DNA of 64,000 nt from Bdellovibrionales bacterium (GTDB taxonomy: Bacteria; Bdellovibrionota; Bdellovibrionia; Bdellovibrionales; UBA1609), in the NCBI GenBank assembly GCA_019695175.1, contig JAIBAM010000006.1:1-64000 (forward strand), in the 5' to 3' direction. Shown piece after piece: positions 26,427-34,272 of this stretch. Every line of letters begins with the position of its first letter. Positions within the stretch are counted from its first letter, which is position 1. The position numbers and the translations under genes were made by a program. Below the pieces are notes generated by a model. That model was not told where the DNA came from. It searched no databases and saw only the letters and a program-made list of their open reading frames with translations.

Positions 26427-28607
26427 TTAGGGAAAATGGATTTGATACCAAAGGGGTAAAGCGCCACTTGAACCCGTAAGATGGGTCGGTCGATTGTCAT
26501 CAAAACCCACCCAAACCAAAGTGAGTTGATCTTTAGTAAACCCAGCAAACCAACTGTCTTTCGTATCGCTGGTCGTTCCAGTTTTACCGGAGGGCCAAGG
26601 CAAAGAATTATCTTTAAGCTCTCCCTCCCCTGAAACCCCCACCCACAGTTTGTTCCTTAATCCCCAATCTTGAGTGACTTTTGCAGTTCCAGAAATAAAA
26701 GTTTCTTGCATCATTTTTTGTAACTCTTGAACCACAGAAGTTTCTACAATAATTTGGGGATCGGCTTTAAATTGATAAACTGGGGAATCATCTAAACAAG
26801 TTACTTTAGTAAGAAAGTGCATGGGATAATGGGATCCACCTCGAGCTAAGGTCAAATAAGATTGACTCAGTTCCCAAGGGGTCACTTCAAAGGCCCCAAG
26901 GGAAAGGGATGGCAAAGCTTTTAATTCAGATTGAATTCCCAATTGATGGGCCAAATTTATGATTTTATCTAACCCCACCTCCACGGCCAACCGGGCTGTG
27001 GGTATATTTAAAGATTGGGAAAGGGCTGTTGTTAATGTCACCTCCCCTCGATAAGCTCGATCATAATTTTGGGGCTGCCACAACTGACCTTCGTATTTAT
27101 AACTCCAGGGTTCATCCTGTAGAATTGAAGTTGAACTGTACTTTGTCGACTCCAAAGCAGCCAAATAAACCACGGGCTTAAACAATGAGCCTGGCTGGCG
27201 GTGACTGTTCATGACCCTATTAAATTGATTTTGTTTATATTTTCTTCCCCCTACCAGAGCTTGAACCTGGCCGCTTTCCACCTCCACACTTAGAACTGCG
27301 GCTTGCAGGACGGCATGTCCCTTGGGATTTTTATCCACCAAGCGAGGGTATCGCTTCTCTAAGTTTTGCAAATGTTGGATCACATCCACCTGAACTCGTT
27401 CCTGGAGCTCTGGATTTAATGTGGTATAGACCTTTAATCCCTCCTCAGAATCAATACCCAATTGCTTTAATTGTTCAAAAACGGCAGCCACAAAATAAGG
27501 TGCTGGCTCCGAGAGTAATCTTTTCGATCGAATACCCAGGTCAGTACCTTGGGCCTTTTTAACCATGGAAGAGTCGATCATCCCCTGCTCCCCCATCCGC
27601 GATAAAACCAAATTGCGTCGGGATAGGGCTTTTTCCGGGTGGACCAAGGGATTGTAGCGACCGGGATTGTTGATCATGGCCGCCATAAGGGCACACTCAG
27701 GAAGCTTTAAATCCCTCAACCTTTTGCCAAAAAAATAATCTGCTGCGGCCCCCAATCCACGAATTTGAAATACACCATCCTGCCCCATATAAACAATATT
27801 TATATAATTGCTTAATATGGAATCCTTATCCGAACGTAACTCTAATAGTAAAGCCATCAATTGTTCTTTAATTTTTCTTTTTATGGTTTTTTCAGGGGTA
27901 AGAAAATAATTTTTAACCAGTTGTTGGGTGATGGTGCTAGCCCCTTCGGCAAATCGACCTCGAGCCACATTTCTACCGAAGGCCCTTAAAATTCCAGTAA
28001 TGGAAATGCCGGGATGGGATAAGAAATCGACGTCTTCTATCGCCGTCACTGCTTGAGAACACTCCAAAGGAACCTCAGCTAAATCAACCACATTTTGCAA
28101 AATGGGTTGGCCGTTGTGGTACTGGGCAAATTTTTCTCCGGGAAGTTCCACCCAATCCCCCCCAGGTTGACTGCCAGAAAATAAAGCGACCACGGTTTCA
28201 CCATGCAAAGCCAACCAGTGGGGCTCTGACAATTGCGGATCCCAAAAACCTAAACATCTTTCCAACTCAACGGGCCACTCCCGATCTCCCATCTGCTCAC
28301 GACAATCTGAGTCGGGAATGACTTTCCAATCACCTGGTCGCAAAGATAAAGTAGCTTCCCTTTCCAACCAATTATGCCGTTGCATCAATGCTGAAAATTT
28401 ATTCAATGACACCTTTTGTCCCACTTTAATCTTCAAAGGTGCGGCATAAAACTCCACGGGAGGTAAAAACCACCCCTTCTTTAAACGAGAATCCATTTCC
28501 TGACTTAGCTGACTCGCCCACAAGAATGCGCTCGTTAATAAGATTGTAATCCCGATAAAAAGTAACTTTATCATTTGCCATAATTTATTTTTTTTTTGCA
28601 TATTCAT
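26427..28607 (-). CDS. mrcB: Bifunctional penicillin-binding protein 1B (glycosyltransferase/transpeptidase)
   Basis: A peptidoglycan synthase anchored by one N-terminal span. Residues about 50-160 resemble the UB2H domain of PBP1b (EFYAAPLKIKVGQKVSLNKF). The GT51 domain follows with EDVDFLSHPG (near 190, catalytic Glu) and EGASTITQQLVKN (near 225). The transpeptidase has SLFKP (SxxK, near 472), SQSLN (SxN) and KTGTT (near 672). About 20 residues before KTG there is a short insert (VGVSGEGELKDNS). At 726 residues it is somewhat shorter than E. coli PBP1b. In E. coli, PBP1b is activated by an outer-membrane lipoprotein; no candidate partner is adjacent. Confidence 0.9.
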   Translation of the reverse strand: MNMQKKNKLWQMIKLLFIGITILLTSAFLWASQLSQEMDSRLKKGWFLPPVEFYAAPLKIKVGQKVSLNKFSALMQRHNWLEREATLSLRPGDWKVIPDSDCREQMGDREWPVELERCLGFWDPQLSEPHWLALHGETVVALFSGSQPGGDWVELPGEKFAQYHNGQPILQNVVDLAEVPLECSQAVTAIEDVDFLSHPGISITGILRAFGRNVARGRFAEGASTITQQLVKNYFLTPEKTIKRKIKEQLMALLLELRSDKDSILSNYINIVYMGQDGVFQIRGLGAAADYFFGKRLRDLKLPECALMAAMINNPGRYNPLVHPEKALSRRNLVLSRMGEQGMIDSSMVKKAQGTDLGIRSKRLLSEPAPYFVAAVFEQLKQLGIDSEEGLKVYTTLNPELQERVQVDVIQHLQNLEKRYPRLVDKNPKGHAVLQAAVLSVEVESGQVQALVGGRKYKQNQFNRVMNSHRQPGSLFKPVVYLAALESTKYSSTSILQDEPWSYKYEGQLWQPQNYDRAYRGEVTLTTALSQSLNIPTARLAVEVGLDKIINLAHQLGIQSELKALPSLSLGAFEVTPWELSQSYLTLARGGSHYPMHFLTKVTCLDDSPVYQFKADPQIIVETSVVQELQKMMQETFISGTAKVTQDWGLRNKLWVGVSGEGELKDNSLPWPSGKTGTTSDTKDSWFAGFTKDQLTLVWVGFDDNRPTHLTGSSGALPLWYQIHFP

Positions 28608-28883
28608 ATTTAAGGTCTCTTCGCCAACACGCTAAATGAGGACAAGAATTAAAGTCAAAGCAATGCTGATAAAGACTTCGACTTTTACTTCTGCATACAA
28701 TAACGTATCTGAAAGTTGGGTCATAAATAAAGAGTTGAAGAGAAATTAATGATTCCAAGGGAGCGGTTCGGGGGAAGTTGCATCTAGATACCTATTCGGA
28801 TTTGTTGCGTCGAAACATGACGAAACAAAAAACTCTTAAAGATCGAAGTGAAAGCTTAGATCCTGGCGGAAGGAGAAACGGTT

Positions 28884-29162
28884 ATGAAACCCACAGAGCG
28901 ACAAATGCAAAGACTTGTACATTATGTGCTTCAAGAACTTAAGGCACAAAACATTTTAACTTTTAAAGTAAAAGAGGAAGAAGTGGAAAAGAAAATGATC
29001 CACTTGATCAAAGCAGACTATATTAGGGAACACTCTTTAGACTTGGAAGTAAATAAAATGATGGACGATTTAGAAAGAAAAAATCCTGGAACTTTTCAAA
29101 GATATAAAATGTTCCCGCTTTTAAAAAAGCGCTTAGCCCAAGAGAAAGGAATTATTCTATGA
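28884..29162 (+). CDS. DUF507-family protein, first copy
   Basis: A 92-residue, highly charged helical protein without signal or membrane segment. Size, composition and the paired arrangement match DUF507, which occurs as adjacent duplicates in Bdellovibrio-like and Aquifex-type genomes; its function is unknown. A strong ribosome binding site (GGAAGGAG) precedes the ATG. The stop overlaps the start of the next gene (ATGA). It opens a three-gene unit that continues with a second DUF507 and a GroES-like gene. Confidence 0.72.
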   Translation: MKPTERQMQRLVHYVLQELKAQNILTFKVKEEEVEKKMIHLIKADYIREHSLDLEVNKMMDDLERKNPGTFQRYKMFPLLKKRLAQEKGIIL

Positions 29163-29437
29163 TGATATCCGAAGATCGCCAAAGTCATTTCGCTCGAATT
29201 TTAGTTGATGGAATATGGAACGACGATTTGGTTGATTTCACCGATGATGAGGCCGCATTGCGAGCCGCTAAAAAAGGCATTTCTCAATTTGTACGTGATA
29301 TTCAAGAAATTGACAAAAAGGTCCGTGAAAAGATAGCTTCCCTATCCCGTGGGGTTGTGGATAATAGCTCCGAATGGGAAGTACTATACAATAAATATTT
29401 TGAAGAGGAGAGCGCTCGTCGTGGCACTAAAAAGTAA
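29159..29437 (+). CDS. DUF507-family protein, second copy
   Basis: A 92-residue acidic helical protein, a diverged partner of the gene just upstream, to which it is coupled by an ATGA overlap. The segment DIQEIDKKVREKIASLSRGV is the clearest family-like helix. The C-terminus EWEVLYNKYFEEE followed by a basic end is typical. Function is unknown. Its last 17 bases overlap the GTG start of the GroES-like gene in another frame, so translation of all three is probably linked. Confidence 0.72.
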   Translation: MMISEDRQSHFARILVDGIWNDDLVDFTDDEAALRAAKKGISQFVRDIQEIDKKVREKIASLSRGVVDNSSEWEVLYNKYFEEESARRGTKK

Positions 29438-30050
29438 ATCAAAAAAACAAACCAAACTTAAAAAAATATCCCAAACTCAAAAAACTACAAAAAAAAAATC
29501 TGTGGCATTGAAAAAAACTCTGCAGTCAAAGTCTCAGAAACCAAAGACAAAAATAAATTCCCCTGAAACCAAGAGCTCCATAAAAAAAACGAAAGTGACT
29601 GCTTCAATAAAAGCAAAGTCCCCCAAGAAAGCAAAGTCATCTCCCCTCAAAACGGTAAAAGAAAAAACCTCTCCGACTCCAGTGGTTCGAAATAAAAAAG
29701 TTGCTAACAAAGTTGAGTCCATTCCTACCAAAAAAAATACGAAATCAGCGCTTTATCAATTTATCACTCCTTTGGATGACCGTTTGGCATTGAGCCTAAA
29801 AAAAATTGAATTGCGCACCCCGGGAGGTCTTTTTATCCCTGCAACGGCCACAATCACAGAGGGACTCAAACAAGGGGAAGTCATCGCGGTGGGTTCCGGT
29901 CATAAAGATAAAAAGGGGAAAATTCGTCCTATGGATGTAAAGATTGGAGATCAGGTTTTATATTCAAACTATGCCGGATCTACGATCACCTTTATGGAGC
30001 AAGAAATCATTATTCTTCGTGAATCAGATATCCTTGGTGTGGTTTCCTAA
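29421..30050 (+). CDS. GroES-like co-chaperonin domain with a long lysine-rich N-terminal tail
   Basis: A 209-residue protein in two parts. Residues about 1-105 are mostly Lys, Ser, Thr, Pro and Ala with KK repeats, like histone H1-type tails. Residues about 113-209 look like Cpn10: TPLDDRLALSL, a GGLFIPAT mobile-loop region, GEVIAVGSGHKDKKGKIRPMDVKIGDQV in pieces, and the ending RESDILGVV. I choose the GTG at 29421 because GAGGAG precedes it and the extra upstream residues lie inside the DUF507 gene. No groEL is adjacent. A co-chaperonin with a nucleic-acid-binding tail is one reading; whether it binds GroEL is unknown. Confidence 0.8.
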   Translation: MALKSKSKKQTKLKKISQTQKTTKKKSVALKKTLQSKSQKPKTKINSPETKSSIKKTKVTASIKAKSPKKAKSSPLKTVKEKTSPTPVVRNKKVANKVESIPTKKNTKSALYQFITPLDDRLALSLKKIELRTPGGLFIPATATITEGLKQGEVIAVGSGHKDKKGKIRPMDVKIGDQVLYSNYAGSTITFMEQEIIILRESDILGVVS

Positions 30051-30091
30051 GATTCAAAATGCTCGGCAACAATCTCTAACGTGAGGACCTT

Positions 30092-31555
30092 ATGAAAGCT
30101 TTTTTTAAAGGAATGTTTTTTTCTGTCATTCTTTGTGTTTTGACCCCACCCAGTTGGTCTGCTGACTTTGAATGGTCAGGGGTTTACCGCATTGAAGGTA
30201 TTCACTTGAATAATGCCGAGTTGAGTGGAGCAAAAAACAATAAAGATTATGGATTGCACCATTTATCACTGCGACCCAAAATCGTGGTCGGAGATGGTGT
30301 GACCATTCATGGTCAGATGGAGTTATTAAATAATTCTACCTACACCAACTCCCAACTGGGTCAAACTTTTGGTGGAGGAGTGAATTCCACCCCTTCCACA
30401 CCAGGTACTGACGCAGATTCTTCCAATAGTCTTTCTTCAATGCAAGAATCCAACACCCTGCGAGTGTCCCAACTTTATCTGAATTGGGTGCACGAATATG
30501 GCTCTCTGATTGTAGGACGGGCCCCCATCCAATTTGGAATGGGAATGAGCTACAGTGCGGGGAAAGGTCTGTTTGATCATTGGTTTGATACTCGTGACCT
30601 TGTGGGATATAAAATTGTCGTAGGAAATTTATTTATACTTCCCATGTATGGCAAGGTAGCAGAAAATACTCTTCACCACAGTGATGATGTGGTCGATTAT
30701 ATGGCTCAAGTGCAATATGAAAATCCTGAAACTGATTTGGAAATCGGAGGATTTTACAGAAGGAGAAGATCAGGGGCTGGCGGTTCAGATACCCCTCGAG
30801 GATCTGGAACCCTTGGCAGTGTGGATGGGTCAGGCAATTCCACTTCAAATTCTTCTAGTATGGATATGAGTCAAATTAACATCTACGTTGGAAAAGACAC
30901 CCCTGAGTACCGCATTGCCGTGGAAGCTGGATTTTTAAAAGGGGATATGGGACTTTTCACTGAAAACGGGTCGGGTGATAAAGTCACTGCTGATGGTTTT
31001 GGCTTGGCCGCAGAACTAGAATGGCGACCCCTGGAATCTAAATGGAAGTGGGGTCTTAAAACGGGACGAGCCTCGGGTGATAATCCCAACTCAACCACAA
31101 AATATGAAGGTTTTGCATTTAATCGGAATTATGATGTCGCCCTACTACTATTTAATCAATCCTTAGGTAGGAATGATGTTTTTAGAACAGCTGTCTGGGG
31201 CGGCGGACCTACAACAAACAGTGGTGCTCCTCCGGAACAAACCAAACCAGATGTGGAGTCCTTAAGTAATGTGCTCTACTTTGCTCCCTATTCCAAGTAC
31301 TCTTGGAACGACCGTTGGTCTTTAACTGGAGTATTGGCGACCGGAAGACTGGCTACAAATCCTCTGAGTAGTGGGGCCAGTGTTGGAAAAAGTCTGGGGT
31401 TTGAAACTGACTTTTCCTTAACTTACACCCCCAGAAAAGGTGTGGAATGGATCAATCAAGTTGGAATTTTATTTCCAGGCGCGGCCTTTACTTACAACGA
31501 CGATAAAGCTGGAATGGCCTACGCTATCGTATCCAAAGCAGCCTTTTCGTTTTGA
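30092..31555 (+). CDS. Outer-membrane porin-like beta-barrel protein
   Basis: A 487-residue protein with a signal peptide (ending PSWS-AD) and many amphipathic strands, for example LSLRPKIVVGDGVTIHGQMEL and GSLIVGRAPIQFGMGMSY. Ser/Gly/Thr-rich loops lie between them, and the protein ends in IVSKAAFSF. The terminal Phe marks it as a BAM substrate. The size fits a 16-18-strand porin. The motif GRAPIQFGMGMSYSAG resembles strand patterns in phosphate- or sugar-type porins, but I cannot assign a substrate. The ATG follows GTGAGGAC, 41 bases after the GroES-like gene. Confidence 0.8.
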   Translation: MKAFFKGMFFSVILCVLTPPSWSADFEWSGVYRIEGIHLNNAELSGAKNNKDYGLHHLSLRPKIVVGDGVTIHGQMELLNNSTYTNSQLGQTFGGGVNSTPSTPGTDADSSNSLSSMQESNTLRVSQLYLNWVHEYGSLIVGRAPIQFGMGMSYSAGKGLFDHWFDTRDLVGYKIVVGNLFILPMYGKVAENTLHHSDDVVDYMAQVQYENPETDLEIGGFYRRRRSGAGGSDTPRGSGTLGSVDGSGNSTSNSSSMDMSQINIYVGKDTPEYRIAVEAGFLKGDMGLFTENGSGDKVTADGFGLAAELEWRPLESKWKWGLKTGRASGDNPNSTTKYEGFAFNRNYDVALLLFNQSLGRNDVFRTAVWGGGPTTNSGAPPEQTKPDVESLSNVLYFAPYSKYSWNDRWSLTGVLATGRLATNPLSSGASVGKSLGFETDFSLTYTPRKGVEWINQVGILFPGAAFTYNDDKAGMAYAIVSKAAFSF

Positions 31556-31601: not shown

Positions 31602-32849
31602 TTATATAGCTCCGCTCTCTGGGCCTGAAAAGGGGCCCGGGCGGCGCTCTTCTGGTCGTCTTCGTGTTTCAACCTGAGGCCCTCCTACATTACAGGCGGA
31701 CATAGCGCTTCGTGAAGACAGGTTGCAAACCGTACCTGTACGAGTAGTACTGACCCCAGGGAGAAGGCTTGCGCCAGTCCCAGCTCCATTGATGAGGGTA
31801 TTGCCTCCTCTTATTCTACTAATTGCCGCATCCACTCCATTAGCACTCTGTAAGTAAGAATCACTGTAGAAGCTTAATCCTTCTTGTCTACCATTACCCA
31901 GAAGGGCCAAATTATCTTCTGTGGAAAAGGTTGGGTACAGAGCCAAATCTCGCCACTCATTTTCGCCATAACCAACATTCAGATAAGCATTACTTATAAC
32001 ACTCTGAAGCGAAGTCCTTTGCTGTACAAGATAATTCCTGTAAGCCACATCCCCAGGGGCTAGGGTAGCTATTTGTTCATCTAATGATTTGACTTCATGC
32101 ACAAGGGAAGCACTTACCCTCATTTTCTTTAATGCTGGACTAACGAGACTTGGATTCAATCCGTTGAGCGATGCCAAAGCTTCCTCTCTCTCTTCCCTAT
32201 CACCATTACGCATCACTGATAACATGGTTGAATTAAGTAAAGTCACTAATTTGGTTCTTTTTACCCGGCCAGCTCTACCATCATCGGAAGACTCTATTCT
32301 GTCGATTAAGCATTCTACCCTATCTTGACCTAATATTTTATCACCTTCACTATCTACTTCACACCTGTTCCGTTTAGCCTCCATTTTTTCCGCCTCCTTT
32401 TTTTCATCTGTTTTTCTATTCATTTCCTCTTGAACCTCTTCAACTTTAGTTTTTATTTGATCTAAAACTTCACTGGTAATTGGTTTAGAACCCCCACTTG
32501 GAAGCTCCAAATCATCAATGATAACCACTCTTGTGCTGGGGGCACAATCCTTACATTTTTTATCACTAACCTTAATGTCAGCATTTAACTCGAATTTATT
32601 ACTCTTCTTCGTCACCCGGACAGTCACTTCCGTCTTAACCTTAGCAACAGTAGAATTACATTTGACTTGGTTGTTAACTTTTATCTTAATTTGACTCAAA
32701 CAAGTCTCTAAATCCGACGCCAGAGAGGCTAAGTCCAGATTTGAGTTCTGCAAAATCATTCGACTTCCCAAGTCCAATGAGACTATTAACATGAGAAGCT
32801 GTAACCAGATTTTGTGGCGTTGGTTTTGTTTTTGCTTTGCTAGGGACAT
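31602..32849 (-). CDS. Membrane-anchored or exported coiled-coil protein of unknown function
   Basis: A 415-residue protein. Basic residues and a hydrophobic stretch (IWLQLLMLIVSLDLG) at the N-terminus suggest an anchor or signal. A beta-rich part with conserved-looking Cys pairs (CKDC) is followed by a helical coiled coil around 140-180 (EVQEEMNRKTDEKKEAEKME) and further helices. The C-terminus is low-complexity and Arg/Pro-rich. I recognise no family. The ATG follows GAGGAG. It faces the porin and shares its terminator. Confidence 0.6.
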   Translation of the reverse strand: MSLAKQKQNQRHKIWLQLLMLIVSLDLGSRMILQNSNLDLASLASDLETCLSQIKIKVNNQVKCNSTVAKVKTEVTVRVTKKSNKFELNADIKVSDKKCKDCAPSTRVVIIDDLELPSGGSKPITSEVLDQIKTKVEEVQEEMNRKTDEKKEAEKMEAKRNRCEVDSEGDKILGQDRVECLIDRIESSDDGRAGRVKRTKLVTLLNSTMLSVMRNGDREEREEALASLNGLNPSLVSPALKKMRVSASLVHEVKSLDEQIATLAPGDVAYRNYLVQQRTSLQSVISNAYLNVGYGENEWRDLALYPTFSTEDNLALLGNGRQEGLSFYSDSYLQSANGVDAAISRIRGGNTLINGAGTGASLLPGVSTTRTGTVCNLSSRSAMSACNVGGPQVETRRRPEERRPGPFSGPESGAI

Positions 32850-33156
32850 ATTATTCTCCTCAGAAACTTTTTAATTCCTCTGTTCTTTAAAATTAAAATC
32901 CAAGAATCCAGCCAGATTTCGCTACAAGTATAACTTTTTGTTTTTATTAATTATTTTAGAGATTCCAATCTTCTAGACTCTGCAATTCCAACGTCCAAGG
33001 TTTAGTCAGTCCTTTAAGGGACCAGCAAAATCCTTACAAATTCCAAAGGGTTTCGTATGGATTACCCAGTGACAGGATTTAGAGACAAAAATCTGTTGCT
33101 TTTAAAAGCACTTGGCACAAAGAATGCCCCTTTATTTTAACTTTAAAGAGTTTGCC
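32850..33156. other. Divergent region with a candidate sigma-54 promoter
   Basis: A gap of about 307 bp between the leftward 415-aa gene and kamA. It includes GAGGAG for the leftward gene at its left edge and the -24/-12 type element at 33112-33128. No gene is called. TTG (33112) and ATG (33124) codons in the kamA frame exist here but would overlap the promoter element. Confidence 0.45.
33112..33128 (+). promoter_or_regulatory. Candidate sigma-54 (-24/-12) promoter
   Basis: TTGGCACAAAGAATGCC has a full TTGGCAC -24 half and GG-N10-GC spacing to the -12 GC (33126-33127). Initiation would fall near 33138, 19 bases before the kamA ATG at 33157. A sigma-54 activator is encoded at 23957, but a link between them is only inference. 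Confidence 0.5.
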
Positions 33157-34272
33157 ATGAGTCGATTGAAAAATTTAATCAAAACCTGCCCAGAAAATAT
33201 CCTAGCTTCCGATTGGATGAACTGGCACTGGCAACTGCGACATCGTCTGCATCAACCAGATGATTTTAAACCTTATCTTGATTTGACCGCAGAAGAACTT
33301 GGCGCCTTTAAAAATACACAAAAATTATTTAAAATTCAAACCACACCTTACTATGCCTCTCTCGTGAACAGAAAAGATCCCAAGGACCCCATTCGTAAAA
33401 TACTAGTACCTCACACAAAGGAGTTATCAAGCGGGGCTCAATCCATGTCCGACCCTCTAGGTGAAAGAAGACATTCCCCCTGTCGAAGAGTAGTTCACCG
33501 TTATCCCGATCGAGTTTTATTTTTAATTACAGACACCTGCAGTGTTTATTGCAGATATTGTTTACGCAAATACTTTACAGGAAATGATGAGGCCTTTATT
33601 TCCCCCAAAGAATATCAAGAGGCTCTGAATTATATAAACCAAACTACTTCTATCAAAGAGGTGATTCTTTCCGGAGGAGATCCCATGACCTTGGGGGACG
33701 CTCGTCTGATTCAAATCCTGACCGACATTCGCAATATAGATCATGTGGAGATCATTCGCATTGCCACCCGAATGCCGGTCGTGTGTCCCATGCGTTTCAC
33801 TCCCGAGCTTTTAAATAAATTACGTTTATTTCACCCTCTCTTTATTATGACTCACTTTAATCACCCCCAGGAAATCTCCTTCGAGTCCGCCCAGACTTTG
33901 GAACTTTTGGTGGACCATGGCTTCCCAGTATTTAACCAAATGGTTTTACTTAGAGGGATCAACAATGATGCCCTTGTTGTTCAGGAACTTTCCCGAAAGC
34001 TCTTAGCCCTCAGAGTAAAACCCTACTATATGTTCCAATGTGATCCCTCTGAAGGTACAGATCATTTTCGCACCTCCATAACGGAGTCCTTACAGATCCA
34101 AAAGGAATTATGGGGTAAAATGTCCGGTCTTGCTATGCCCAATCTCTCTTTGGACATACCTGGTGGAGGTGGCAAAATTGGCTTGGTGCCGGATTTTTGC
34201 ACTCATAAATCAAAAGAAAAATGGTCGTTCAAAGGATGGGACGGAATTGAGGGCGACTACATCAACCCTTAA
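33157..34272 (+). CDS. kamA: Lysine 2,3-aminomutase-family radical SAM enzyme
   Basis: A cytoplasmic Fe-S, SAM and PLP enzyme that moves the alpha-amino group of lysine to the beta carbon. The radical-SAM motif CSVYCRYC is near residue 128. The family N-terminus (WMNWHWQLRHRL), TPYYASL, SGGDPMTL and PYYMFQCD are all present. The two acidic positions that bind the lysine epsilon-amino group in known lysine aminomutases, in QCDPSEG and LDIPGGGGK, are kept, which favours lysine over glutamate. Length (371 residues) is slightly short. A role in beta-lysine synthesis or EF-P modification is possible; no partner gene is adjacent. The start is discussed under the promoter. Confidence 0.88.
   Translation: MSRLKNLIKTCPENILASDWMNWHWQLRHRLHQPDDFKPYLDLTAEELGAFKNTQKLFKIQTTPYYASLVNRKDPKDPIRKILVPHTKELSSGAQSMSDPLGERRHSPCRRVVHRYPDRVLFLITDTCSVYCRYCLRKYFTGNDEAFISPKEYQEALNYINQTTSIKEVILSGGDPMTLGDARLIQILTDIRNIDHVEIIRIATRMPVVCPMRFTPELLNKLRLFHPLFIMTHFNHPQEISFESAQTLELLVDHGFPVFNQMVLLRGINNDALVVQELSRKLLALRVKPYYMFQCDPSEGTDHFRTSITESLQIQKELWGKMSGLAMPNLSLDIPGGGGKIGLVPDFCTHKSKEKWSFKGWDGIEGDYINP

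Follow-up and report, generated by a model that had tools for sequence, protein, structure and literature searches.

The gene at 29421..30050 of the window (the whole analysed stretch of 64,000 nucleotides, from a Bdellovibrionales genome of 2.6 Mb that is 97% complete) encodes a second GroES, GroES2, in which a long tail resembling that of histone H1 precedes a Cpn10 domain, and such a tail was found throughout the order. With a probability of roughly 0.5 we propose that GroES2 is an alternative GroEL lid that would use its seven tails and its basic roof to anchor the folding chamber on a polyanion, the nucleoid being the most plausible. That Bdellovibrio possesses a second GroES is already known, its tail having been noticed only as an annotation error; a tailed lid shared across the order, with the charge of its roof reversed, has not been described in the literature searched. 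The features of the locus are as follows.

26427..28607, minus strand: penicillin-binding protein (PBP; transglycosylase and transpeptidase), constant divergent upstream neighbour, from profile matches and locus comparison
28884..29162, plus strand: DUF507a, gene for the N-terminal half of DUF507 (PF04368 model 1-93, E=3.7e-8)
29159..29437, plus strand: DUF507b, gene for the C-terminal half of DUF507 (PF04368 model 95-181, E=7.7e-17)
29403..29410, plus strand: ribosome-binding-like AAGAGGAG within the final DUF507b codons, from the sequence and the conserved context gaagaggag...GTGGC
29421..30050, plus strand: groES2 coding sequence for 209 aa, comprising the H1-like tail and the Cpn10 domain, with a GTG start whose context is shared by orthologues
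29421..29762, plus strand: N-terminal lysine-rich tail forming aa 1-114, predicted to be disordered and with a net charge of +33, from composition, pLDDT and dN/dS of orthologue tails
29763..30047, plus strand: Cpn10/GroES domain, aa 115-209 (PF00166; Foldseek to GroES structures)
29817..29840, plus strand: mobile-loop core TPGGLFIP, the GroEL-binding segment, which aligns with residues 21-28 of E. coli GroES and is kept by both GroES2 and canonical GroES (GroES1)
29901..29930, plus strand: roof hairpin HKDKKGKIRP, basic in GroES2 versus acidic in the canonical GroES of the order (column statistics, 72 GroES2 and 30 GroES1)
30092..31555, plus strand: outer-membrane beta-barrel-like (OMP) gene, constant downstream neighbour, with a weak Alginate_exp match below cut-off

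The reading frame runs from GTG at 29421 to TAA at 30050 and confirms the extent given in the original prediction. Its start overlaps DUF507b by 17 nt and lies ten bases after a ribosome-binding-like stretch, GAAGAGGAG. A lysine-rich N-terminal sequence ahead of a recognisable Cpn10 domain had likewise been claimed, and both parts were recovered: the former comprises about 114 residues, and the Pfam profile PF00166 matches aa 115-208 over positions 2-93 of its 93 (E=4.9e-23; 81.4 bits against a cut-off of 21.1). In an AlphaFold model built on 31 orthologues, pLDDT is mostly 90-94 in the C-terminal half of the Cpn10 domain and 50-59 in the tail, where secondary structure is absent. The best Foldseek matches in the PDB were all Cpn10/GroES, and every match with E<=0.001 was a Cpn10-type chain; the solved sequences closest to GroES2 are the Cpn20/23 chains of a ClpP complex (7ekq).

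In composition the window tail (114 aa) is 31% K, 1% R, 26% S/T and 6% P, with only 3 acidic residues among the 114 and 6% alanine, a residue that ranges from 6 to 30% in orthologues. It can be called H1-like in being long, predicted disordered, far richer in lysine than in arginine and poor in acidic residues, DNA binding being putative. Across the 72 complete second-GroES genes, tails measure about 49-215 aa, some of these lengths being uncertain by a few residues where the start site was chosen by rule (the rule-picked start is probably too early in L039, L194, L198 and L203), and in those orthologues for which it was counted net charge lies between +18 and +99. Composition is thus retained over a more than fourfold spread of length, a pattern that a specific site would explain less well than bulk electrostatics. 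A search of the window genome for other proteins with such a tail, insensitive owing to low complexity, gave one marginal match (E 0.009).

Whether the tail belongs to the protein at all has been disputed for the orthologue in Bdellovibrio bacteriovorus HD100, Bd3349, which falls in the same clade (99/87) and stands at the same locus, flanked by PBP and OMP genes. Lambert et al. (2012), who named bd3349 groES2, judged the annotation of 224 aa to be wrong because of the repetitive sequence preceding the domain, and placed the start at an internal Met just before it, giving 117 aa (PMC3464611). The HD100-like genome G061 indeed yields frames of 224 and 117 aa from two starts exactly as discussed for Bd3349 (locus L167). 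However, most species of the genus, among them the very close L168, do not have that ATG, and no Shine-Dalgarno sequence precedes it, whereas the upstream start is conserved among orthologues as GTGGC or ATGGC with a Shine-Dalgarno sequence at a fixed place. In loci with DUF507b this sequence, gaagaggag, mostly lies in the final DUF507b codons and the GTG/ATG-GC start overlaps the end of that gene by 8-17 nt; in the genus Bdellovibrio, where DUF507 is gone, an independent ribosome-binding site, gaaaggatt, stands ahead of GTGGC. The best HD100-like start lies five residues further downstream than the one first annotated and gives 219 aa.

The coding statistics point the same way. Of 74 second-GroES loci read, two were cut by contig ends, and all of the 72 complete genes, the window included, carry the tail. 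The original prediction thus withstood both of its refuting conditions, a missing Cpn10 match and a tail lacking in every orthologue; it did not include the orthology with Bd3349 or the reversed charge of the roof hairpin. When 32 tails were pooled, the coding frame held 1744 AAR against 50 AAY codons and zero stops, whereas the two alternative frames contained 181 and 315. Tail dN/dS in unsaturated close pairs was 0.06-0.20; between the HD100-like L167 and L035, for example, 22 synonymous and 7 nonsynonymous changes were counted in 107 codons. Over nine pairs, 333 of 347 aligned tail lysines were kept, 70 of them with a switched codon, and differences at the three codon positions numbered 100/80/268. 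On these sequence comparisons the tail is a translated, conserved part of the protein under purifying selection, and we propose that selection keeps its composition rather than its exact sequence. A start at the internal Met was therefore rejected on the conserved start and ribosome-binding site, the reading-frame statistics and dN/dS, and we regard it as barely credible. The published Bd3349 is a 117-aa protein with its tail discarded, in contrast to the conserved, apparently translated and order-wide tail described here; HD100 resembles the window genome in that a second GroES exists beside one groES-groEL.

Canonical groES and groEL lie adjacent on another contig of the window genome (C15:179772-181646), and this groEL is the only one found there; as originally predicted, none stands beside groES2. 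A CIRCE heat-shock element was not detected within 3 mismatches before groES2 or groES1. Canonical GroES (that of E. coli and GroES1 of the same genomes) shares the Cpn10 fold and the mobile loop with GroES2. It differs in having about 95-105 aa and no tail, in adjoining groEL where checked, and in its acidic roof hairpin.

The shared and the divergent part of the domain were compared by column statistics on 72 GroES2 and 30 canonical GroES of the order. The GroEL-binding mobile loop is present with its hydrophobic tripeptide (TPGGLFIP in the window; L/I - Y/I/F - I in the 72 orthologues), and within GroES2 its residues are conserved at 94% for T, 90% and 98% for the two G, 99% for L or I, 93% for I and 94% for P. 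At positions 50, 51 and 55 (E. coli numbering), assigned from the GroES structure to the hairpin that roofs the dome, the mean charge is -0.97, -1.00 and 0 in GroES1 and +0.85, +0.94 and +0.81 in GroES2, the acidic E/D-D of the former being replaced by a basic K-K-G...R. From this switch the GroES2 dome itself is predicted to be basic, beyond the tails. Conservation of the GroEL-contact residues in GroES2 had already been noted (PMC3464611). Three loci of family f2 (L065, L059, L060) are among the most divergent GroES2; the mobile loop of L065 is without GG (EESKLIIIAE), so GroEL binding may be altered there. The GroES2 of L200 (G107) is perhaps decaying: no other tail is as short (49 aa), its domain contains an insertion, and a stop falls inside the profile match.

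The fusion recurs in other genomes across the order. A tailed second-type Cpn10 gene was found in 34 of 59 sampled genomes, to which G001, of the same genus, adds the start of a tail at a contig end, and it is near-universal in family f8, which holds Bdellovibrio. In 24 of the 59 relatives, mostly with small genomes, groES2 was not found, and it is therefore dispensable; genomes without it are smaller (median 2.25 versus 3.25 Mb; Mann-Whitney p=8e-6, uncorrected for kinship). One relative that is 99% complete (G003) gave no Cpn10 match, canonical or tailed, which reflects either an assembly gap or real absence. The other families of the phylum that were sampled yielded no tailed GroES, even their longest GroES reading frames being untailed, and of the best 80 matches in named genomes, those from outside the order all lack a lysine-rich extension. 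A tree of only 94 columns, with a bootstrap that had not fully converged, separates GroES2 from canonical GroES as a single clade (99% bootstrap, 87% SH-aLRT). A one-off fusion or an assembly artefact is ruled out by the 72 genomes and the single clade.

Gene order was compared between the window (26427-31555) and loci L033-L065, L067-L086 and L167-L206. Wherever the contig reaches, the succession of a divergent PBP gene, the DUF507 pair, groES2 and the OMP gene is almost perfectly kept across the order, and the locus was therefore taken to descend vertically from one ancestral locus; horizontal transfer or a mobile island is unsupported, the locus being syntenic throughout. The OMP family, with its weak Alginate_exp match, is present at almost all loci whose contig extends far enough. 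Two DUF507 genes had been predicted in the operon: two adjacent genes of 92 aa are indeed present, but each proved to be one half (1-93 and 95-181) of the DUF507 model of about 180 aa. Proteins of this family come in forms of about 90 and 180 aa and have no known function (PMC10439177). Elsewhere in the order DUF507a and DUF507b are two overlapping or abutting genes, and in G018 (L062:4552-5190) they are fused into one frame of 213 aa, like Aquifex AaDUF507. The DUF507 pair and groES2 drop out independently; the window copy keeps the pair upstream, whereas genus g38, which holds the HD100-like genome, is without it. This independence argues against a tight functional link, and a tie between groES2 and DUF507 is not needed, as each is lost without the other. 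In loci where the Cpn10 domain is missing, the tail was not found as a separate gene, and in most of them the OMP gene directly follows DUF507b. Further along the window, a 415-aa protein without convincing family (31602-32849, minus strand) adjoins a lysine-2,3-aminomutase-like radical SAM gene (33112-34272).

How such a lid might act can be outlined from these observations. GroES2, as a heptameric lid, would cap the single GroEL of the cell via the conserved mobile loop, as its conserved residues suggest; seven disordered tails and a ring of basic roof hairpins would, by the geometry of such a lid, render the capped end strongly cationic; and electrostatic attraction would hold the GroEL-GroES2 complex on a polyanion, with nucleoid DNA the most probable, and thereby place folding at that site. 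The heptamer, the capping of GroEL, the outward direction of the tails and the binding of a polyanion are what we infer. Among chaperonins, the GroEL1 paralogue of Mycobacterium tuberculosis is reportedly nucleoid-associated; it is a GroEL and not a lid, and is not known to carry an H1-like N-terminal tail. T4 Gp31 is like GroES2, in the role proposed, as a substitute GroEL lid, and is not known to have a cationic tail. Lambert et al. saw no special similarity between Gp31 and GroES2 (PMC3464611).

The nucleoid is favoured as the anchor because of the analogy with other H1-like tails. In Pseudomonas, the disordered tails of PhaF and AlgP are believed to attach granules to the nucleoid (PMC3574117, PMC9239181), and the C-terminal lysine repeats of actinobacterial topoisomerase I (TopA) have been reported to stabilise its complex with DNA (PMC7398561). 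PhaF and AlgP resemble GroES2 in joining a disordered tail rich in Lys, Ala and Pro to a domain with another job, but the tail is C-terminal, the cargo is a granule, a GroES domain is lacking and the proteins are not homologous as wholes. TopA, too, is a conserved bacterial protein extended by H1-like lysine repeats, although it is an enzyme already acting on DNA, and again the repeats are C-terminal. The nucleoid is a choice among several polyanions, and the binding of DNA, RNA or acidic proteins suggested in the original prediction is likewise putative. A disordered cationic tail might instead serve to keep proteins from aggregating, work on client proteins or associate with an acidic one.

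Lysine-rich tails do not discriminate between polyanions, which counts for a lid moored to RNA or ribosomes, its tails binding rRNA or mRNA and holding GroEL-GroES2 on polysomes while protein synthesis surges before prey lysis. The activation of groES2 during intensive protein synthesis (PMC3464611) and the action of GroEL/ES on ribosome-bound nascent chains (PMC12615815) agree with such a position; yet an RNA-binding domain was not found in the profile search and the tail is of the H1/AlgP/PhaF type (K, A, S/T, P and almost no R), and on balance we think it unlikely. Since AlgP, itself H1-like, associates with polyphosphate granules and needs its tail for their spacing (PMC9239181), the tails of GroES2 might also bind such granules and couple the chaperonin to starvation or differentiation. 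A gene for polyphosphate was not recognised in the conserved locus, however, and this proposal appears quite remote.

The tail may, on the other hand, tether nothing and act on the chaperonin itself, through affinity or turnover of the lid on GroEL, or bind acidic clients or an acidic partner complex; a sub-case is a lid for another complex, comparable to chloroplast Cpn20/Cpn23 on ClpP. The basic roof hairpin at the dome could act on clients, and the kinship of the nearest solved chains (7ekq) suits the sub-case. Against this stand the tail length, which varies more than fourfold at kept composition, and the retained GroEL-binding loop, and a role internal to the chaperonin seems improbable to us.

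The timing in B. bacteriovorus also counts for the nucleoid-moored lid. In HD100, groES2 is expressed only 2-4 h into predation, and its transcription is de-repressed without Bd0743 (PMC3464611); mooring would accordingly fall late in predation, at septation, when the published data place groES2 transcription. The main text of PMC6561027 contains no Tn-seq phenotype for Bd3349 in HD100 or 109J. The published model of Bdellovibrio GroES2 is corrected here: the 117-aa form, in complementation or as recombinant protein, would miss half the protein. As B. bacteriovorus is a genetically tractable predator kept in the laboratory, the question is directly testable there.

For the Bdellovibrionales we tentatively consider, at slightly less than even odds in our view, that a whole order may possess a dedicated nucleoid-bound (or RNA- or polyphosphate-bound) chaperonin, in which the single GroEL would be recruited by swapping in an H1-tailed lid with a positive dome, and the choice of lid would set where in the cell and when in the life cycle chaperonin folding takes place. 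Chaperonin lids are usually regarded as caps that can be exchanged for one another; were a conserved one to bear a tail of DNA-binding type, a bacterium could direct its folding chamber to a particular site within the cell.
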